Of a stretch of 39,918 nucleotides of DNA, positions 8,645 through 21,612 are shown piece by piece. The translations under genes were made by a program, and so were the position numbers. The notes below the pieces were generated by a model. The model did no database searches. It saw only the letters and a list, made by a program, of their open reading frames with translations, and was not told where the DNA came from. The stretch comes from a virus. The stretch is from IMG/VR virus record IMGVR_UViG_3300002835_000442, positions 1 through 39,918 of that record; one strand, written 5' to 3'. How positions within the stretch are numbered: the stretch's first letter is position 1; the number at the start of each line of letters is the position of its first letter.

Positions 8645-10327
8645 ATGGTTCAGCGTGCGGGACTTGATCTTGGCTCCTTTGACCTGGCCACGGGCGCGTC
8701 CGCTCCTGTCCTGACGCCCGCTGCTGTTCCGCCTCCCCCGCCGGTCCTGCCGCGTCGTGCGCCAATGGCCCCGACTGCCGCTCCTGTTGTGCCGCCTGAG
8801 CAGATTCAGCAAGCCGCTCGGGACATTCAGATGACGGTTGCCGATGCGGCAGGTGTTGGCGCGCAGAACCAGCCGCGGCCCTCGTATGCGTCCGATGCCC
8901 AGCGTCGGGCCACGGAGGTGTCGAGAATCCTCGAAAGCAAGTTGCAGGAGCGTCTGAAGCCTGACTTCGGGGACATTCTCTCGGCAAGCCTTCAGACCCT
9001 TTCTGGCCGCGGGCGCACGAACTTCGCGACGGCGTTGCGCGAGGAAGAGAGCAAGGATCTCGGACGGGCCTACAACATCGCCAACGCCCTGTCTGGTTTG
9101 CAGCGTGGTGCGGCGGCAGGAGAACTGCGTCCAGCGGATCTGCTTCGGTTTGCAGAACGCCAAGCAGAACGCGGCGATGTCAGGGTCAAGATGGTGTTGG
9201 ACCAGGTCAATCAGGCTGCGCGCGGCTTTGAGGATGAACCTTCTGCGCGCGAAAACCTGTTGTCTGCCGTCATGGAGGTGGATAGCCCAGAAAAGACGCC
9301 GGTTCAGGTGATAAAGGAAGCGGTTGAGCTTGTGCGCGCGGGTGGTTTGGCGTCAAAGCAGCCACGGGCGGCGGCAACGACAGGAACTGCTACTGGCGGC
9401 ACCGGCGGCGTGACCAAGGACGCAAATGGCATGTGGGTTGCCGCACCCGGCCAGCGGCTGACGCAGGACCAGGCGCAGTCAAATCTTTCGCGCCAGCAAG
9501 GCGACCCAACAACGGCTGACCGCATTGACCAGCGGATCAAAGAGCGCGCCATGGGCGTCGGTGGAAGGGGTGCTGATCCAGCGGATAGGTATGCCAAGGC
9601 ATACGAGGGGTCTCAGGTCGCGTTGGGCCTGATTGATCGGACCCGTGATATTCTGCGTAATAACCCGCAAGCTGTTGGAGCGGCGGGAGCATTGGGCCTG
9701 TTCGTACGCGGTGTCGAAGCCCAGGCCCGCGCCCTGATGAACACGCCGGTCCAGTTTTCGACCGGTGGCGGGAATTATCGGGACGTGGACGCCAATCTCC
9801 TTGCAAACCCGTCCGCCGCACGGGCGATTTGGGATCGCGTCACCTCCGGAACCGATCTAAAAACAGGGTTTGCCTGGCTTGATAGGGCGCCAGAAGCACA
9901 GGCAATGCGGACGAACCTGCTTCTGCTTGCATTTGCTGTGGCGCGTGCGATTGAACCCGGTGGCCGACTGTCGAACCAGGACGTGTCTGGCGTTCTGAAT
10001 GCGTTGGGTGCCGGCGGTTCTCAGATCTTTACAGACCCGCGTTCCATGGCACGGGCGCTTGATGAGGTTGAGGCGTACGTCAAGAGTTCCACGAACGCGG
10101 CATATCGGGGTGCTGTGCAGAGGTTTCCTGAGTTTGGGAAGGTCAACCCGAATGAGCCGTATCCCATGGGCGCTCCGCAGCCAGCAGCGGCCCCAACGGC
10201 AAGCCCCCAAACGGGGGCAACTTCTGCGCCTAGCGCGGCAAGGTTCAGCGAAGGTGCCATTGCGGTCAACCCAAGCACGGGGCAGAGGGTTCGATTCACC
10301 AATGGTAGATGGGAGCCGGTTCAATGA
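8645..10327 (+). CDS. Ejection (internal virion) protein candidate 2
   Basis: This 560-residue protein has a Pro/Ala-rich N-terminal 60 residues (VPPPPPVLPRRAP) and a helical central region (residues 70-200). It then has a Gly/Thr/Ala linker (TTGTATGGTGGVTKD), a second helical domain with 'AKAYEGSQVALGLIDRTRDI', and another Pro/Ala linker before a short C-terminal unit ending VRFTNGRWEPVQ. The multi-domain, linker-rich architecture and position between two other ejection-type genes support an internal virion protein delivered into the host. No lytic transglycosylase motif is evident. It overlaps the next start by four bases. Confidence 0.7.
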   Translation: MVQRAGLDLGSFDLATGASAPVLTPAAVPPPPPVLPRRAPMAPTAAPVVPPEQIQQAARDIQMTVADAAGVGAQNQPRPSYASDAQRRATEVSRILESKLQERLKPDFGDILSASLQTLSGRGRTNFATALREEESKDLGRAYNIANALSGLQRGAAAGELRPADLLRFAERQAERGDVRVKMVLDQVNQAARGFEDEPSARENLLSAVMEVDSPEKTPVQVIKEAVELVRAGGLASKQPRAAATTGTATGGTGGVTKDANGMWVAAPGQRLTQDQAQSNLSRQQGDPTTADRIDQRIKERAMGVGGRGADPADRYAKAYEGSQVALGLIDRTRDILRNNPQAVGAAGALGLFVRGVEAQARALMNTPVQFSTGGGNYRDVDANLLANPSAARAIWDRVTSGTDLKTGFAWLDRAPEAQAMRTNLLLLAFAVARAIEPGGRLSNQDVSGVLNALGAGGSQIFTDPRSMARALDEVEAYVKSSTNAAYRGAVQRFPEFGKVNPNEPYPMGAPQPAAAPTASPQTGATSAPSAARFSEGAIAVNPSTGQRVRFTNGRWEPVQ

Positions 10328-13071
10328 GTGAGCTTCCGCCTGGATTTGTCCTTGAGTCTGATCTCCCCAAGGGCTTCGTGCTTGAGTCGCCGGGACAGAC
10401 GCAACAGCCCCAGGAGGAAAGCCCTCGCGCGGCAAGCATTCGGCAAAAGATATCCGAGCTTGGTCCCGATCTTGGCCCCCCTAACTTGCGGATGCGGCCA
10501 AGTGAGTCTCGGCTGGCCATGCAGCAGCAAGCAGAGCGGCAGCGTCTCGCGCAAGAGTTGCAGTTTGAGCAGGAGGGCGTTCGCATTGGTGAGGCCCCGG
10601 TTGAGGCGCGCGTCAAGTCTGGCCTCGGCATCAGCAGGGCGCAGGGGTATCAGTCTGCCCTCGGCCCCGACTACCAGGTCCGCGAAATCAAATCTGAAGG
10701 ACCGTTGCAGGGCGAGGTCGTGTTTCGCAAGGAGGGCGAGCAGGGATGGACGACGGTTCGCGACCCCTATCCGCTTCTTAGCCCGATGGATGTTGGCGCA
10801 CGCGCACGGGACATTCAGTCGCTGCGTTATACTGCGGTCCCAGAGGCGATCGGCGCTGCTGGTGGCGCACTCGGAGCGGCTTCGCGCTTGCCTGGGGTTG
10901 CAACCAAGCCATTGTTCATGGCCCCTGCGCTTGGTGGCTTGGCGAGGTTTGGCGCGGAAATGTCGCGCATGCAGGAGGGTCGCCGCCAGGGGATCATCCC
11001 GCCAGATATTTCTGACGCCGAAATCAGCGCCGTTGCATTGAACGAAGCCTTGGGCCAAGCAATTGGTGAGTTTGGCGGCGTCGCTCTTTATTCGGCATTC
11101 AAGGCCCTCCGCGGGCGCGGACTTCCTGACCTTGGCGATTTGACGCCTGATCAACTGCAAGCGGGCATTGATAGCCTTAAGCAGAAGCTCGGGCCGGAAG
11201 GGGCGAAACTGATCACGATCGGGGACATCCTCTCCGAGATTGGCCATCCTGCGGCGAGCATCTTCAAGAGCGGCGAGGAAAAGGCGGCTCGCACGTCTGG
11301 GGCGATGCTCCAGCCGGATTTCGCTAACCGCCTTGCTGCGAAGGAGCAGTTCTCAGGCCAGCAGTTGCAGCAGGTCATCCCAGAGGGTGCGACGCCGGCA
11401 CGGGTGGACGTGGAACAGCTTGGCCGTTCGGTTGAGGCCGCGGCTCCCGGCATTGAGGAGTTCGGGGCGGCGACGCGAGCAGTTCCAGGCGCTCAACCCC
11501 CATCCTCGGCGGCGAATCTTGGCGAGCGAGTTGTCCAGACGCTGCGTGACGCAGAGCGCGCTGGCCAGGAGGCAATCCAGAAGGTCTACCAGCGACTGTC
11601 TGGCACGGTTGGCGAAGTTGGCGAACTGCCGACTGCGACCGAGAAGGCGATCACAGAACTGGGCGAGGACTTTCGCACGCGGATCTTCCCGGCCCTTTCT
11701 GATGACCAGAAGAAACTGGTCACAGATGCGACACGCACGTTGTATCGGGAGACGCCGGGAACGCCAGGCGGGTTCGGCCCTGACGATGAGGTGTTCATCC
11801 CTGCTGCTGAAGGTGGTCGAGAGCTTAAGGAGATCTCCTTCCTTCAGTACCAGAAGGCCATCTCTGACATCCGGCGGGCCATTCGCCTCGGATACAAGGG
11901 CGAGTGGAGCGGCGAGCTTGGCCAGCTCGACACGCTGGAGCGGGCGCTGATCGCAGACCGCGACCGACTGCTCATGAAGACGATGGGGCCTGATGCGGTC
12001 AAGGAACTGAACGACGCTGACGCGGGCTGGGCGGCGCTGAAGAACACGTTCCGCCGCGCCAAGTTGGCCGAAGCGTTCAAGGTCAGCCCCAAACTGGCGC
12101 GTTCGGAAACCTCTGAGGACTTCCTAGGCGACCTGTCGATGGACTTCGATACGGCCCAGGCGGTGAAGCCGTATTTGCAGGGCCGGGAGTTGGCAGAAGT
12201 CCGCGGCATGCTCATGCTGCAACTGTCTGAGCTTGGCGTTGCCTACGGGCGTGGCCGAGAGATCCGGCAGGGCGTGTTGGAGCGGGCGATCAATGCGTCG
12301 GATTCTCCGATCGGAGTGTTCTTCAACCAGGCAGAGCGCAAGGGCCTGACCAGCGGGGCAAAGCTCCAGGAGATCCGCAAGGCCATCGGTGTTGCCGATC
12401 GCCAGGACTTCGGCTCATGGTTCGATAGCTTTTACAGCGCCAAGAACATCGGACAGGCTGATGCCTTGTATCGTCGTCTTGCGTCCAACCCTGCGAATGC
12501 CCCTGTTGCCGATGCGATCCGCTCGATGGTTCGGCAGCGTGTCTACGACGATCTCAGCACGAAGGGGTCGCAGAACGTCGCAAAAGTTCTGGACGTGGAC
12601 AAGTTTGAATCCCTCGTTCGCGATCCCCGGCAACTGCAATGGCTCGAGCGGTCTCTCGGCCCTGATTTCGCCGCGCGGCTTGGGATGGTGAGCGAGGCGA
12701 CGAGGGCGTTGTTCCCCGCCGGCCAGCGGGTCAACCTCGGCGCAGAGACGAAAGCCGCAAGCGTCACGATGGAAGCGATCCGCCGCGGCAGTCGCGCGGT
12801 TGTCGGCGTTCTCAGCCCGAAGGCCAGGGCGCTGACCTATGCCCTCAATGTCGCCAACGCAGACATGAAGCAGCGGATTGCCCGTGCGGTTCTCGACCCC
12901 GAGTATTTCACGCGGCTGATGCGCCAGTCCCGCAGCACGGCTGGTGGCCGGGTGACGGCGACAACCTTGGGCGCTGCGCTCAATGAGAATGAGTTTGGCG
13001 ATACGAACGTCTGGTGGTCTGATCTACCGGGCAAGTGGTCTGAAAATGTCTCTCGGATGATGCCTCAGTAA
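10324..13071 (+). CDS. Large ejection (internal virion) protein
   Basis: The start is set at ATG 10324 (ATGA overlap with the preceding stop, GGGAG at 10312-10316), giving 915 residues. The upstream in-frame codon at 10309 would bury the ribosome site. The first 22 residues contain a tandem repeat, LPPGFVLES then LPKGFVLES, a motif I associate with large phage internal virion proteins. The remainder is mostly long alpha-helix with Gln/Glu/Arg-rich stretches, plus one hydrophobic Gly/Ala segment (AIGAAGGALGAASRL, about residue 180). This matches T7 gp15/gp16-type ejection proteins in size, order and composition. No transglycosylase catalytic motif was recognised. Confidence 0.75.
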   Translation: MSELPPGFVLESDLPKGFVLESPGQTQQPQEESPRAASIRQKISELGPDLGPPNLRMRPSESRLAMQQQAERQRLAQELQFEQEGVRIGEAPVEARVKSGLGISRAQGYQSALGPDYQVREIKSEGPLQGEVVFRKEGEQGWTTVRDPYPLLSPMDVGARARDIQSLRYTAVPEAIGAAGGALGAASRLPGVATKPLFMAPALGGLARFGAEMSRMQEGRRQGIIPPDISDAEISAVALNEALGQAIGEFGGVALYSAFKALRGRGLPDLGDLTPDQLQAGIDSLKQKLGPEGAKLITIGDILSEIGHPAASIFKSGEEKAARTSGAMLQPDFANRLAAKEQFSGQQLQQVIPEGATPARVDVEQLGRSVEAAAPGIEEFGAATRAVPGAQPPSSAANLGERVVQTLRDAERAGQEAIQKVYQRLSGTVGEVGELPTATEKAITELGEDFRTRIFPALSDDQKKLVTDATRTLYRETPGTPGGFGPDDEVFIPAAEGGRELKEISFLQYQKAISDIRRAIRLGYKGEWSGELGQLDTLERALIADRDRLLMKTMGPDAVKELNDADAGWAALKNTFRRAKLAEAFKVSPKLARSETSEDFLGDLSMDFDTAQAVKPYLQGRELAEVRGMLMLQLSELGVAYGRGREIRQGVLERAINASDSPIGVFFNQAERKGLTSGAKLQEIRKAIGVADRQDFGSWFDSFYSAKNIGQADALYRRLASNPANAPVADAIRSMVRQRVYDDLSTKGSQNVAKVLDVDKFESLVRDPRQLQWLERSLGPDFAARLGMVSEATRALFPAGQRVNLGAETKAASVTMEAIRRGSRAVVGVLSPKARALTYALNVANADMKQRIARAVLDPEYFTRLMRQSRSTAGGRVTATTLGAALNENEFGDTNVWWSDLPGKWSENVSRMMPQ

Positions 13072-14317: not shown

Positions 14318-15093
14318 CCGCCCTGTCCAAAGCGACGCTGAAGAACATCTGGCGCGCGGGGTTCCAGCCGAAGGCGTCGGACTTTGCCAACCTGATCGAC
14401 TCCTGGACCGACTATAACCAGTCGCTTGAGAACCTGTCACAGTCGGTGTCTGCCGGCACGACGGGCGTGGCGTTGTTTGAGCCTGGGTCTGTCGTGACGT
14501 TCGTGGCGGCTTCTGCGGCTGCTATCGCTGGCGTGCCACTATATTCAGGGATCTTTAGCGCCGCTCAAACGGCCCCAGTTGGGGCCAATATGGTATATGC
14601 GCAAACCAGCGCTGCCGGAGGTCCAATTTTCAATCTCTTGGCCGTTGGGGGGGCAGGGTCAAACCTTGCAATAACCAACACCAATTTAACGACATACCAG
14701 GGGTCTGCGGGCGTCACTTTTGGCAATTTTTTAAATGCGCGACTTTACAGCGGAACGCCCTCGTCTCAATTGCCAGTACCGGCCAACAGAACTGTGTATT
14801 CATTCCTGGCCTATGCCTATGGAGACTCCCAATTATTGCCGGGGGCTGGCTACAGGGCGCGCACAATAGCAGCCACATCAGCCGTTCCAAACATTGAGCT
14901 TCAGTTCTTCGTTGGAGATTCCGTTAATAACTTTTCTTCTGGCGATCAGCAGCTTCGGGTTCGCCGCGGGGCGATCAACTTCCAGCCCAAATCCGCCGCT
15001 CCTGCCTCCCCCGCAGAGGGCGACGTGTACTACGACAGCGTGCTGCAAAAGCTGCGCTGCTACAACGGCACGATCTGGAACGACCTTTTCTGA
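14314..15093 (+). CDS. Tail-fibre/receptor-binding protein candidate with swapped central domain
   Basis: This 259-residue protein shares its first about 50 residues with the preceding gene (FQPKASDF, NLIDSWTDYNQSLENL, SVSAGTTGV). It ends with the widespread fibre tip-adaptor motif SPAEGDVYYDSVLQKLR then CYNGTIWNDL. The central part (about 14530-14960) is clearly richer in A and T and uses different codons from both flanks, as expected of a horizontally exchanged receptor-binding domain. Order within the genome (last fibre before the lysis genes) is typical. Confidence 0.8.
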   Translation: MTALSKATLKNIWRAGFQPKASDFANLIDSWTDYNQSLENLSQSVSAGTTGVALFEPGSVVTFVAASAAAIAGVPLYSGIFSAAQTAPVGANMVYAQTSAAGGPIFNLLAVGGAGSNLAITNTNLTTYQGSAGVTFGNFLNARLYSGTPSSQLPVPANRTVYSFLAYAYGDSQLLPGAGYRARTIAATSAVPNIELQFFVGDSVNNFSSGDQQLRVRRGAINFQPKSAAPASPAEGDVYYDSVLQKLRCYNGTIWNDLF

Positions 15094-17099: not shown

Positions 17100-17436
17100 T
17101 GTCTTTCCTTTCCATGCGCCGCTTGAGCATCGTTGCCCCAGCCGAATCGAGGATGCTGATCGTCTCGTCCGACCAGTTCATCACGACGACCTTGATATCT
17201 TCGTCCGTGAGGTTGGCGTCTGCGTGTCGGTTGAGGAAGGCAACCAGCATCTGAGTCAGATCCTCCCTGATGTGGTTCTCCCGCTCAACCAGGGCTTCCT
17301 TCATGCGGTCGATCTCGTCCAACGCCGCTTGCACGGCGCGCAGGCAGAGCCGATCAACGACTGGGAGGTTGGTGGCATCGTACTTCGTCCGCATGGTCGC
17401 GGCGATGCTTTCAACCATGTCGAGGCTCTCCTTCAC
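17086..17436 (-). CDS. Helical protein of unknown function in recombination operon
   Basis: This 116-residue protein starts at a GTG that overlaps the Erf stop (GTGA) with GGAGG seven bases upstream. It has helical charged segments (LCLRAVQAALDEIDRMKEAL, then ENHIREDLTQMLVAFLNRHA) and an acidic turn (NLTDEDIKVVVMNW). No catalytic motif is visible. It overlaps the SSB-like start by 14 bases. Confidence 0.7.
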   Translation of the reverse strand: MKESLDMVESIAATMRTKYDATNLPVVDRLCLRAVQAALDEIDRMKEALVERENHIREDLTQMLVAFLNRHADANLTDEDIKVVVMNWSDETISILDSAGATMLKRRMERKDNGQA

Positions 17437-18074
17437 GGCTGCACCTCCAGTTCCGCCAGGCGATCGTCCTTGGCCTTCATGATGGCGGCGTAGCCCTCCT
17501 CGCTCGCCTTCTTGATCTCCAGGAGGATGACCTTCTCCCTGAGCAGGATCTCCGCGATATCAGTTGCAAGGGCTGCGTCGAGGATGGCCGTGCGGATGCG
17601 CTTGAACTCGTCCCGCACAGACGGCTTTGCGGGCGCTTGCGGCGGGCGATCCTTGACGGTCTGGACCGTGTTGCCATCGGCGGCGTTGGCGTCATCGTCC
17701 TCCTCGGCAGCGAGACCGAAGAAGCTCGCCACCTGATACCGGCGGGCGAAGGTGATCACGCTGCCCATCTCCTGCATCTTGGCAACGCGCGCCTGGTCGA
17801 GCGGCATGCAGGTCGAGATCATGCCCCCCGCCGAGTGCATGAGCCGCAGACACATGACCATGCCCTCTGGGCTGCGCTCCAGCGTCTGCGTCATCGACAA
17901 CCCATTGTCAGACAGCGGTTTGCGGATGCCGTCGAGGATCGCATCCAACGTGGCATAAGCGAACTTGTACGCACCCCGATCGCTCTTGACGGAGACCTCC
18001 CGGTTCTTGGTCGGGTTCGACATGCTGCCCTGGGCCTTGGCGAGGGCGGCGTAGAGTGCTGCTTCGGGGTTCAT
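17433..18074 (-). CDS. erf: Erf-family single-strand annealing protein
   Basis: This 213-residue protein contains the ERF superfamily signatures: YKFAYATLDAILDGIRKPLS (about residues 37-56), a hydrophobic beta region, and MGSVITFARRYQVASFFGL followed by an acidic AAEEDDDAN stretch. Erf proteins anneal complementary single strands during recombination-dependent replication. The ATG at 18074 overlaps the exonuclease stop (TGATG) with AGGAGAG upstream. Its C-terminal helical tail likely contacts partners. Exonuclease directly upstream and SSB-like protein downstream complete a Red-like module. Confidence 0.9.
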   Translation of the reverse strand: MNPEAALYAALAKAQGSMSNPTKNREVSVKSDRGAYKFAYATLDAILDGIRKPLSDNGLSMTQTLERSPEGMVMCLRLMHSAGGMISTCMPLDQARVAKMQEMGSVITFARRYQVASFFGLAAEEDDDANAADGNTVQTVKDRPPQAPAKPSVRDEFKRIRTAILDAALATDIAEILLREKVILLEIKKASEEGYAAIMKAKDDRLAELEVQP

Positions 18075-18856
18075 CACGCGCTCTCCTTGATGGTGGCCGC
18101 GCCACGCTTGTTGCGGGTGAGGCTGATGCCGTGACCGGTCGCCGCTTTCACGTCAGCGCCAACCAGGGCCTTGATGCCGGAAGCGGCGGTGTCGAACGCC
18201 TTGGCCGCGGCCTTGTTCGCCAGCCAATCGGCAGCGCAACTGGCCCATTCGTTGTTCCCGGTCATGCTGACCACACGGAACGGCTCGGGAGGGGCCACGT
18301 TGGGCGGCGCGTCGGACGGCGGGATGCGGTAGGTGACGCACTCCCAGAAGTCCGCCTCAACCTCCATCAACTTCGCCGCATACTCGTCGTTGAACTCGAT
18401 CTCGGCGTAGTCGTACTCGTTGCCAGAGATGACCGACAGGAACGCCTTGCGACGCCCGGTGACGATCATGCTGTGGTGCAACTGAGGCTGATACTTGGCG
18501 ATCGTGTCGGCCATCGAGAAGCGCGCGTTGACGTGCTTGGCCTCGACAATCGCGTCCTCCAGCAGACCGTCAGGCGTGCATGCCATCCAGCCGTTAGCGT
18601 GGACGATGCGCTCCTGCTGGCCGGTCAGGGTCCAACCGGTCTTGATTGAAAACCAGGCGAGGTTGAACGGCTCGGTGAACGTGCCGAGTTGGACCGGGAA
18701 CACGTCGTCCAAGCTTTCCGGCGCCGCCGCTCCGGTCTTAACCTTCCACAGGTCGAGGCGCTGCTGCGCGGTCCCACCCATGATGATATTTGCGTCGGAC
18801 GCGCCCAGATATTTGCGACGCTCCTCATGCCACTCAGAAGTTTTCGGCGTATTCAT
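18074..18856 (-). CDS. YqaJ/lambda-Exo-type alkaline exonuclease
   Basis: This 260-residue protein has the YqaJ layout: W9..ERR..YLGASD at the start, an LGTFTEPFNLAWF motif with Glu62, the catalytic CTPDGLL (Asp96) and IVEAKH (Glu105, Lys107), and the YQPQLHHSM helix (Tyr122, Gln123, Gln125). The Asp-Glu-Lys set is the PD-(D/E)xK core. It would resect double-stranded ends to give 3' single strands for the Erf protein. Start ATG 18856 has GGAGGA upstream and lies in a 23-base overlap with the loader-like gene. Confidence 0.9.
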   Translation of the reverse strand: MNTPKTSEWHEERRKYLGASDANIIMGGTAQQRLDLWKVKTGAAAPESLDDVFPVQLGTFTEPFNLAWFSIKTGWTLTGQQERIVHANGWMACTPDGLLEDAIVEAKHVNARFSMADTIAKYQPQLHHSMIVTGRRKAFLSVISGNEYDYAEIEFNDEYAAKLMEVEADFWECVTYRIPPSDAPPNVAPPEPFRVVSMTGNNEWASCAADWLANKAAAKAFDTAASGIKALVGADVKAATGHGISLTRNKRGAATIKESA

Positions 18857-19526
18857 CAGCTTTATCCTCCACGGTTAGCTGTGAGGATTGCTCTGTATCA
18901 TCATTTCCGTCGGCTTGTACACGGGAAAATGTCGGCAAGCGTGAAAAAGCTGGGCCGGCGACGCACCTCCTGCGCGTCAACAGGCGATCTCGCGCAGAAA
19001 GCCAATGGCGCTTGTCGATCGGCAGGTACGATGGCGCGGTATTCCCTTTGAAGATATCCGCGATTGCCGCGTCCCAGGCCCGGTATGCGATCCCGTCAAC
19101 GCCAGGCGTCAGGCAGGACCAGAACTCCTGCTCGGTGGCGTCGAGCCTCCGCGCCGCTTCTTCGATGCGATGCTGGTGATGCTCCCGCGTGCGCTCGATG
19201 ATGCGGTTGCGAAGGGCGTGGGCGGTCTTGTTCTTGATCATCCACGCTGCCGCCGCAGGATCAACTGCCGTCTCCTGCTCTGGCTCCTGCATGGCGTCTG
19301 GCTCGTCCAGCCACCGCTGCTGGTTCAGCCAGGTGCCGCCGTGGGCGATGAATTGCGGATCGGTCCCACGCTTCGCCGCGGCATAGCGTTTTGCGCCCTC
19401 CACGATGACGCTGGGCGCGATCTTCATGCGCTTGGTGACCTTCTCCCATGATTTCTCGGCTGCGCCTCGCCCGACCCTGCGCGGGTACACGGCCCAAAAG
19501 TCCGCGAATGTTGGCTCTGCGGTCAT
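18834..19526 (-). CDS. Replication organiser / helicase-loader-like protein
   Basis: The start is set at ATG 19526 because GGGGAG lies seven bases upstream; the longer GTG start at 19547 is less likely. This gives 230 residues. The N-terminal domain shows 'FADFWAVYPRRVGRGAAEKSW...I..GAKRYA...FIAHGGTWLNQQRW', the pattern of phage replisome organisers and DnaT/helicase-loader N-terminal domains. A second helical domain follows. The ATGA overlap with the preceding gene suggests coupling. It would load the host helicase on the phage origin. Family assignment is from motif memory only. Confidence 0.75.
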   Translation of the reverse strand: MTAEPTFADFWAVYPRRVGRGAAEKSWEKVTKRMKIAPSVIVEGAKRYAAAKRGTDPQFIAHGGTWLNQQRWLDEPDAMQEPEQETAVDPAAAAWMIKNKTAHALRNRIIERTREHHQHRIEEAARRLDATEQEFWSCLTPGVDGIAYRAWDAAIADIFKGNTAPSYLPIDKRHWLSARDRLLTRRRCVAGPAFSRLPTFSRVQADGNDDTEQSSQLTVEDKADEYAENF

Positions 19527-19798
19527 CCGCTTGCTCCCCAAGACCACTCTGTTGGCCCATAAAACCGTGGCGGGCTTTGCAGCGGATCATCTCCGCACAT
19601 GGCCACGATCTCCAAGCTGCCGTATGCGTCTGCGAAGTCGGCCCCCTTGCGGATCATGCGCCAGGCTGTGAAATGCCCGCGCAGTCCAGGAACCTCTGCG
19701 ATCAGATCTCCGATGTGGTGCGGGTTGAAGCGCCGCTTGTCATCGAAGGATCGCTTCTTGGCAGAAAAGTCCCTGCTCCTGACCTTTGTAAGCCTCAT
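19523..19798 (-). CDS. Small protein of unknown function before the loader gene
   Basis: The start at 19798 (MRLTKVRSRD) is chosen because GGAGGAA is five bases upstream; an earlier in-frame ATG (19810) overlaps the ribosome site. The 91-residue protein is basic at the N-terminus (SAKKRSFDDKRRF) and ends with aromatic/Gly residues (GPTEWSWGASG). It contains 'GLRGHFTAWRMIRKG'. No family recognised. It overlaps the loader start by four bases, so it may regulate or assist the loader. Confidence 0.65.
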   Translation of the reverse strand: MRLTKVRSRDFSAKKRSFDDKRRFNPHHIGDLIAEVPGLRGHFTAWRMIRKGADFADAYGSLEIVAMCGDDPLQSPPRFYGPTEWSWGASG

Positions 19799-19809: not shown

Positions 19810-20514
19810 TCAGTTCTCTGGCGTGTCAAACAAACTGCCGGTCTTCACCGGACGCTTGGCACGCACTCTGGGCGGACAGTTATGCCCATCCCAGCATTGG
19901 GCCATTACGCCGGCCAATCGCCCGGTCTCGTTGTGGTGCCGCGCGATGTCGGTGCTATCCACAGACGCGAAAGGATACCCGCTTTTCGCCATCCGCATCC
20001 CCCGCAGCATGTGGAGCCACGTGGGGGACGGTCCTCCGTTGCACAACTGGGTGAACACGTCATCCATTCGTATCCGCCATTTTTCATCGCCGACTGTGGC
20101 GTATTCTCCGGACGATCCAATGCAAACCCTGTCAAAGCGGTCGCAGAGCCGTAGCAAGCGGGGGATCGATTCATGCACATGCCATACCGGAGCGCCCGCT
20201 CGCGGCCCATGCGGCCATTGCCTGATGAGTTCGTCGTTCTCCTCCTCTGTGCCTTCGATCACGTCAGGGATGACTGCCCAGGTCGTGCGATACTCCAGCC
20301 ACCGCTCGCACCAGGCGTAGTACCCTGTCCAGTCCGTCCCCTTGCCCGATCGCCACGCCGAAAATGCTCCGTTGTCGAGCATGACGCTTTGGCCAATTTC
20401 GTGGCACACCTCAACCTGCCGCGGGTCTGCGAAACTGACGCAGAAGTTGCGCCCAGCAAGCTGATAGATGACGTGATGGGGTGTGATGGGCGTCCCGTGG
20501 TAGTGAACCGTCAC
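19810..20514 (-). CDS. TGT/DpdA-like transglycosylase (putative 7-deazaguanine DNA-insertion enzyme)
   Basis: GTG 20514 is preferred (GTGA overlap, GGAGG five bases upstream), giving 234 residues; a longer GTG start exists at 20526. The order of motifs parallels tRNA-guanine transglycosylase: SVMLDNGAFSAW (Asp47, like 'TDSGGFQVF'), WAVIPDVI (Asp84), VCIGSSGEYATVG (residues 130-142, like 'GGLAVGE') and FASVDSTDIARHHN (Asp186/Asp189, like the nucleophile region). DpdA is the TGT paralogue that swaps guanine in phage DNA for 7-deazaguanines. The zinc Cys triad of tRNA TGT is not obvious, as in some phage DpdA. Coupling to a YhhQ-like transporter strongly supports the role. Confidence 0.7.
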   Translation of the reverse strand: MTVHYHGTPITPHHVIYQLAGRNFCVSFADPRQVEVCHEIGQSVMLDNGAFSAWRSGKGTDWTGYYAWCERWLEYRTTWAVIPDVIEGTEEENDELIRQWPHGPRAGAPVWHVHESIPRLLRLCDRFDRVCIGSSGEYATVGDEKWRIRMDDVFTQLCNGGPSPTWLHMLRGMRMAKSGYPFASVDSTDIARHHNETGRLAGVMAQCWDGHNCPPRVRAKRPVKTGSLFDTPEN

Positions 20515-21011
20515 ACCCGCCTCCACAGGAAGTATGCCACGACAACCGCGCCAGCCATTTTCGCGACCAACATGATCGTGAGGGTGACCGGGTTGATTGC
20601 GGCTAGGCCGAATGCGATGCCTGAGAACAATACGGTGTCCACGGGGACGCTGGCCGCGCTTGATAGCAGGATGCGCTTTCCGAGAGGCGCATTTGTCCAG
20701 CGGAAGATGGCGTAGTCGATCATCTCAGACGCAAGGAACGCTATTGCGCTAGCAGTTGCAATTCGTGGGTCGCTCGTCAGGTAACTCAGCCCCATCCCAA
20801 TGGCTATCGGCACGAAAATGGCCCTATCTCCGATCTCGCGGTGAGCGAGGTCGCGCAGCACCAGCCATAGCCCGACGATGATAGATAGGGGATGCCAGAC
20901 ATAGCTTGTCCCCGGCACCGGCAGGACGCCGATGTATCCAAACAGCCAATTCGTGAGCGGCATCGCCGCGATGTACACGACGGTCCACTTGATTTGCGCG
21001 AGCTTGCTCAT
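20511..21011 (-). CDS. YhhQ/VUT-family queuosine-precursor transporter
   Basis: This 166-residue protein is almost entirely hydrophobic with about six membrane helices. It carries the VUT/YhhQ pattern: LVLRDLAHREIGDRAIFVP (Arg53-Asp54), SAIAFLASEMIDYAIF (Glu96, Asp99), and ASVPVDTVLFSGIAF. This family imports preQ0/preQ1. It would feed the TGT-like enzyme encoded by the next gene, with which it overlaps by four bases (GTGA). Start ATG 21011 overlaps the preceding stop (ATGA) and has GGAGCGG upstream. Confidence 0.85.
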   Translation of the reverse strand: MSKLAQIKWTVVYIAAMPLTNWLFGYIGVLPVPGTSYVWHPLSIIVGLWLVLRDLAHREIGDRAIFVPIAIGMGLSYLTSDPRIATASAIAFLASEMIDYAIFRWTNAPLGKRILLSSAASVPVDTVLFSGIAFGLAAINPVTLTIMLVAKMAGAVVVAYFLWRRV

Positions 21012-21274
21012 CGATATCCGCTCCTTTGTCTTGCCTCAATTTCGAGGGGGTGATTTTCATAGCCATGAAGGAAAAGCCACCACAGATACCGCGCCGAGAA
21101 CCCCCACGGGCCGTATCGCTCGATCTGCTCCAGGTGGACCTCTTCATGCGCGACGAGCCCGTGGTCCGGTGGCCACGTCGCGTAATACGCGATGCGCCAG
21201 GGCATCGTGATCGCCGCGTAGCCGGTGGCGCGCAGCCACCAGCGGATCGGCAGCGGGGCGGGGCGGTGGGTCAT
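21008..21274 (-). CDS. HExxH mini-protein (putative small metallopeptidase)
   Basis: The start at ATG 21274 is chosen for its GGAGG site and ATGA overlap; the 88-residue protein contains LVAHEEVHLEQIERYG, an HExxH zinc-binding motif (about residues 43-47). A possible third ligand lies in NHPLEIEAR. Two hydrophobic segments (WLRATGYAAITMPW and SARYLWWLFLHGY) suggest membrane association. Small HExxH proteins occur in phages; a function is not established. It is four bases from the transporter and could act in the same operon unit. Confidence 0.75.
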   Translation of the reverse strand: MTHRPAPLPIRWWLRATGYAAITMPWRIAYYATWPPDHGLVAHEEVHLEQIERYGPWGFSARYLWWLFLHGYENHPLEIEARQRSGYR

Positions 21275-21612
21275 GGCTTGGCCTCCAGCGCGGCGCGCAG
21301 ATTCTCCTCCCAATACTCCCAGCCCTTTCCGGCCGGGTCATAGGTATCGGAATCCTCGTAGTCGATGAGTGCCTGTGCTGCTGCGCGTATGGTCTCCAGC
21401 ACCTCGACGCGGGCGCGCAGCCGCTCGGCCTCCTGACAGGAAACGGTCCCGCGCACGCAGTTGACGGTGAGCGCGCCGGGTTGCGCCAGGACGACGCTCG
21501 ACTCGACCAGAGCGCGGAGACGAATGATTTCGTCGGCGGCACGATCGACTATAGATCTGTCGATCTGCCACTCCTCTGCGTATTCGCGCAAACGCTCCAC
21601 GATGTCGCTCAT
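21271..21612 (-). CDS. Paralogous coiled-coil micro-protein (copy A)
   Basis: Start ATG 21612 (MSDIVERLREYAEEW) has AGGAGG eight bases upstream; the longer frame to 21903 is a shadow of the neighbours. The 113 residues include a coiled coil with QEAERLRARVEVLETI and the C-terminus RAALEAKP. Copies at 21609 and 22024 share the MS.DIV..LR start and the 'AAEIERLRARVE' motif. No enzyme motif. Stop overlaps the next start, within the recurrent GGAGGCCAAGCCATGA junction. Confidence 0.75.
   Translation of the reverse strand: MSDIVERLREYAEEWQIDRSIVDRAADEIIRLRALVESSVVLAQPGALTVNCVRGTVSCQEAERLRARVEVLETIRAAAQALIDYEDSDTYDPAGKGWEYWEENLRAALEAKP

Follow-up and report, generated by a model that had tools for sequence, protein, structure and literature searches.

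The question raised by this locus is how a phage with a predicted enzyme for exchanging guanine in DNA, and with a predicted transporter gene next to it, would obtain the base to be inserted. The window (the whole stretch of DNA analysed, 39,918 bases) is an IMG/VR record of an uncultured tailed phage, a bacterial virus, and includes terminase, portal, major head, holin, RecE-like, Erf-like and replication genes. No near match to positions 15000–39918 was found among GenBank phages. Our main reading, to which we assign a probability of about three in four, is that the two genes form a minimal phage 7-deazaguanine DNA-modification module, in which the partner of dpdA boosts or alters the precursor.

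The transporter–dpdA gene pair

The genetic context of the pair was examined in the window. A gene for a short singleton DpdA of the TGT superfamily (234 aa, GTG start; minus strand, coordinates 19810–20514), predicted to exchange guanine and 7-deazaguanine in DNA, follows one for a 166-aa VUT/YhhQ (QPTR)-like membrane transporter (minus strand, 20511–21011), a predicted importer of a preQ0/preQ1-type precursor. Both belong to a minus-strand gene string that continues downstream into genes for a replication initiation protein (18834–19547; phrog_270, E 2.9e-25), a RecE-like/YqaJ exonuclease (18074–18856) and an Erf-like ssDNA annealing protein (17433–18077). The original prediction had noted that the biosynthesis genes for FolE, QueD, QueE and QueC were not visible, and the Pfam models QueC, PTPS/QueD, Radical_SAM and FolE indeed gave no match across the whole record, a result that holds for these 39,918 bases of a record that is perhaps incomplete. 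Upstream of the transporter gene, an ORF matching phrog_37302 in PHROGs (function unknown; minus strand, 21008–21313) encodes a metalloprotease-like HEEVH motif and shares 4 bases with the start of the transporter gene.

The transporter gene has the 3′ end TTCCTGTGGAGGCGGGTGTGA, and dpdA begins at the inner GTG at 20514 on the minus strand. The transporter stop and the dpdA start thus share the 4-base overlap GTGA (20511–20514), and a GGAGG ribosome-binding site for dpdA (20520–20524) lies within the transporter gene, 5 nt 5′ of this GTG. The longest dpdA ORF starts at a GTG 12 nt earlier (20526) and encodes 238 aa. However, the 234-aa start is likelier, because most homologues start at M(T)IHYHGTP. 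Both minus-strand ORFs and their overlap were therefore as first described, and the proposed translational coupling looks functional because relatives place other 7-deazaguanine genes in the same slot.

The assignment of the transporter to the YhhQ-like (VUT) family was also confirmed. The protein has a hydrophobic membrane-protein profile and matched Pfam Vut_1 (E 1e-9; 39.4 bits, over the cut-off of 27.2) and phrog_4899 (E 8.5e-27), and a profile HMM of the phage transporters, run against Escherichia coli YhhQ with five further E. coli proteins as controls, found YhhQ alone (E 1.7e-6). YhhQ (QPTR, COG1738, TC 2.A.88) is a known preQ0/preQ1 importer of 221 aa, whereas the window protein has 166 aa and scored 25.1 bits against the NCBIfam equivalog model for queuosine-precursor transporters (TIGR00697), below its cut-off of 50.95. 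It is therefore called QPTR-like rather than an equivalog. VUT/YhhQ-family members of E. coli and Chlamydia differ in their substrates (PMC11130926), and it is the genomic association with dpdA that suggests a preQ0/preQ1-type precursor as the substrate in the window phage.

Relationship of the short protein to known DpdAs

Searches with the window TGT-like protein alone matched no Pfam or NCBIfam model and no solved TGT sequence in the PDB, and the Pfam TGT model PF01702 had no match in the window record or in 36 family members. The evidence for homology was therefore drawn from PHROGs and from a family profile. The protein matched phrog_887 (queuine tRNA-ribosyltransferase) with E 5.6e-54, and a tblastn search with it matched 104 phage records. 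A family HMM of 36 relatives, built without the DpdAs of phages CAjan and 9g, found both of them (E 5.9e-11 and 4.4e-8, respectively), the best E among 1000 shuffled controls being ~1. The DpdA of Salmonella phage 7-11 matched the window protein with E 8.8e-35, and that of Pantoea phage MED16 matched 94 ORFs of the locus set. These matches uphold the placement of the 234-aa protein in the TGT/DpdA superfamily, first made from the motifs LDNGAF, VIPDV, IGSSGEY and VDSTDIARHHN, all of which are present. By its sequence, the window protein is a member of a short singleton DpdA subfamily (phrog_887) homologous to the DpdAs of 7-11, MED16, CAjan and 9g.

In the numbering of the 238-aa ORF, D51, N52, P87, D88, H116, G137, H172, D190 and S191 are invariant in 36 homologues, and D51, G53-A54-F55, H116, G137, H172, D190 and S191 are common to the window protein and the 9g and CAjan DpdAs. 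D51 and D190 correspond to the TGT-type catalytic aspartates (in a D-x-G-x-F and a D-S motif). H172 aligns with H196 of the 9g protein, the histidine that defines DpdA and is absent in DpdA2 (PMC6884629). All dPreQ0 is lost from CAjan DNA when dpdA is removed (PMC6884629).

An AlphaFold2 model of the window DpdA was a barrel (mean pLDDT 85.7), and its best VIA-align match was the archaeosine TGT 1iq8 (Z 15.5, rmsd 3.1, 213 residues). A TGT heads this ranking, but PdxJ, another TIM barrel, came close with Z 14.0, and Foldseek placed generic TIM barrels first, with no TGT among the 50 matches listed. The predicted fold is not decisive by itself.

The second VIA-align match was the Cap10–CdnD complex 9ntn (Z 15.4). 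TGT-family enzymes are known to have been remodelled for proteins (PMC11996544), and the window enzyme might modify a protein with 7-deazaguanine, as Cap10 does in type IV CBASS, or might act against host defences in which bases of this kind take part. However, the Z score of 9ntn is tied with those of ordinary TGTs, no QueC/Cap9-like partner was found beside the family and the nearest sequence relatives are DNA-linked DpdAs, making this very unlikely.

Action on host or phage tRNA, with the transporter feeding a queuosine-type modification that improves translation during infection, is a somewhat better alternative, though still improbable. VUT and TGT proteins normally serve tRNA queuosine, the top VIA-align match is a tRNA transglycosylase, and some phages with preQ0 genes and no DpdA may boost Q (PMC6884629). 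Against a tRNA target, the Pfam TGT model, as above, matches nothing in the window record, the DpdA histidine is invariant in the family, dpdA adjoins replication and recombination genes, and the DNA of the closest measured relatives, 7-11 and MED16, is modified. DNA is therefore retained as the probable target.

Partners of dpdA across the family

The surroundings of dpdA were examined in ~240 loci from two scans of viral contigs, one scan of prokaryote genomes and a few annotated phages. Clustering at 80% protein identity gave 119 clusters, or 117 without two reference phages, and a partner was defined as a pathway gene within 1.5 kb of dpdA on the same strand. A 7-deazaguanine-pathway gene adjoins dpdA in 89 of these 117 non-redundant loci (~3/4), and none was detected in 28. 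VUT transporters were found in 43 loci (34 with VUT alone), an 82-aa protein described below in 32 (21 alone), QueD-like proteins in 24 (16 alone) and QueE in eight; combinations comprised VUT with the 82-aa protein (nine loci), QueD-like with QueE (seven) and other mixtures (two). The adjacency is exclusive, as the four partner families gave no matches outside the 1.5-kb zone even though 822 of the 1,384 kb scanned (59%) lies outside it. FolE and QueC were found beside members of the dpdA family only in the two reference phages. Isolated E. coli phages of the family include vB_EcoD_Opt-719, with a transporter gene adjoining dpdA, and HK106, in which no partner was found.

VUT and QueD-like genes occurred together at none of the 117 loci against ~9 expected (Fisher p 6e-6), and QueD-like genes were seldom found with the 82-aa protein (p 0.004), kinship being handled in both tests only by the 80% clustering and a tree count. 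Partner labels cluster on the tree yet need 41 changes, with VUT requiring at least nine on well-supported branches alone. Partners have thus been exchanged repeatedly across the family. Chance or passenger adjacency was also considered for VUT and was rejected, as 18 of the 43 genes lie upstream and 25 downstream of dpdA, every one of them within 1.5 kb and sharing its strand, and the same position is occupied at other loci by different genes of the pathway.

Relatives were carried by 43 genomes, presumably as prophages, and a full QueC was encoded in 39 of them. VUT-type prophages were found in three of the four hosts without QueC but in five of the 39 with QueC (p 0.016), a comparison uncorrected for kinship and with only four QueC-less hosts, of which three are MAGs. 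The presence of the VUT type in QueC-less hosts fits salvage.

The 82-aa partner belongs to phrog_37496, which has no annotated function and is not present in the window phage; examples lie at L037:9765–10010, L029:9756–10001 and L005:5774–6022. Its predicted structure (pLDDT 95.9) is a bbaabb T-fold closest to the QueF-Like archaeosine synthase (5jyx, 5k0p), with a Foldseek probability of 1.00 and a VIA-align Z of 12.3 over 82 residues (rmsd 1.5). The QueF-Like assignment comes only from this predicted structure, as a profile found no QueF among PDB sequences and Pfam gave no QueF; the length of 82 aa also sets the family apart from QueF-Like. The family has an invariant CP motif. Cys12, invariant in 13 sequences, falls at the position of the catalytic Cys21 of QueF-Like when read from the aligned ranges with no gap assumed in the first strand. 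Cys21 has been implicated in forming a thioimide with preQ0 (PMC5485725). The 82-aa protein may thus be an archaeosine-type or related enzyme.

QueD-like and QueE genes lie together beside dpdA at L130:2740–3354, L118:2349–2966, L112:5630–6313, L137:5693–6316, L144:5558–6295, L109:1211–1948 and L125:4369–5013, with no QueC or FolE nearby, and the base offered at these loci might be 7-carboxy-7-deazaguanine. Some QueD-like partners are short (~100 aa; L041:7414–7746, L061:1854–2156 and, in Caulobacter phage DMCA, L089:3720–4016); these retain LHGH and apparently lack the QueD catalytic cysteine, unlike the full-length PTPS at L080 and L081, in which a Cys precedes LHGH.

Proposed module and its relation to measured phages

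In the module that we favour, the transporter would supply the infected cell with preQ0 or a closely related compound from outside, and the short DpdA, translationally coupled to it, would swap guanines in the phage DNA for the imported base by a TGT-type exchange. Homology to proven phage DpdAs suggests that this exchange would use the D51/D190 pair and H172. The remaining pathway steps would be left to the host or environment and, as the partner in the window is an importer, the phage would therefore use precursor supplied by the medium, by neighbours or by the pool of its host. Across the family, the partner would tune how the base is supplied or which base is used, with VUT providing import, QueD-like proteins, sometimes with QueE, providing synthesis, and the QueF-Like T-fold protein converting the base to an archaeosine-like one. 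Whatever benefit the module brings to the phage is likewise predicted. A broader proposal treats the short DpdA as the constant part of a DNA-modification cassette into which interchangeable helpers plug. The helper would set whether precursor is imported, made in larger amounts or converted to a different base, and partner-bearing phages would be far more modified than the partner-less ones measured to date; the odds on this are evenly balanced.

A close known parallel to the gene pair of the window is Escherichia phage CAjan, which also has a DpdA and a YhhQ-like transporter, and its DNA modification is proven. The CAjan and window DpdAs have the catalytic residues and the H196 histidine in common. 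However, CAjan encodes full preQ0 synthesis (FolE/QueD/QueE/QueC) and a 306-aa DpdA, and its transporter gene is ~2.3 kb from dpdA, whereas the window has two genes only, directly coupled.

The singleton DpdAs of 7-11 and MED16 belong to the same short subfamily as that of the window, with full-length homology, and these phages also lack biosynthesis genes. In 7-11, 0.02% of G is dADG, and in MED16 0.13% (PMC6884629, PMC8306585). Most of the tested enzymes whose recognition sites contain G cut MED16 DNA, the exceptions being Dam-methylation-sensitive (PMC6884629, PMC8306585). The predicted protection from restriction is thus not supported by these measurements. The trace dADG of the measured, partner-less members counts against the module, as do the 28 loci with no detected partner. 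Alternatively, an active module could modify DNA at trace levels only and give no advantage against restriction. However, 7-11 and MED16 have no pathway partner detected beside dpdA, whereas the window dpdA is coupled to a transporter, and the repeated exchange of pathway partners together with the invariant active-site residues argue for selection. Activity limited to trace modification is therefore unlikely, and a module whose partner raises or changes the precursor is preferred.

DpdA-only phages formed the largest group (group 3; 76 phages) in the survey of Hutinet 2019, which called their modification status hard to predict, proposed salvage for them via host supply or uptake, and found YhhQ in some phages with no correlation with any group (PMC6884629). 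Import plus insertion as a minimal salvage system, as originally envisaged for this locus, is thus plausible, but salvage by a DpdA-only phage is not new as an idea. As far as checked, two points are new. The slot for interchangeable partners offers a testable rule for predicting which DpdA-only phages should be modified, the base involved and the hosts or media in which this should occur, and the assignment of the 82-aa protein as QueF-Like gives phrog_37496 a suggested function. A large 2023 study reportedly deals with further phage deazaguanines and may touch on partner genes.

Three further features were seen at individual loci. Two TGT-like ORFs of the family lie near each other in one phage (L039:8553–9242 and 9902–10681). 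In another, a stop splits the dpdA frame into two ORFs (L040:9923–10705), and this copy may be broken. A nucleoside 2-deoxyribosyltransferase-like gene lies directly 3′ of dpdA at L005:7118–7501 (Pfam PF05014, E 2.6e-9), L010:5799–6182 and L048:10633–11064, and perhaps represents a second base-exchange route.
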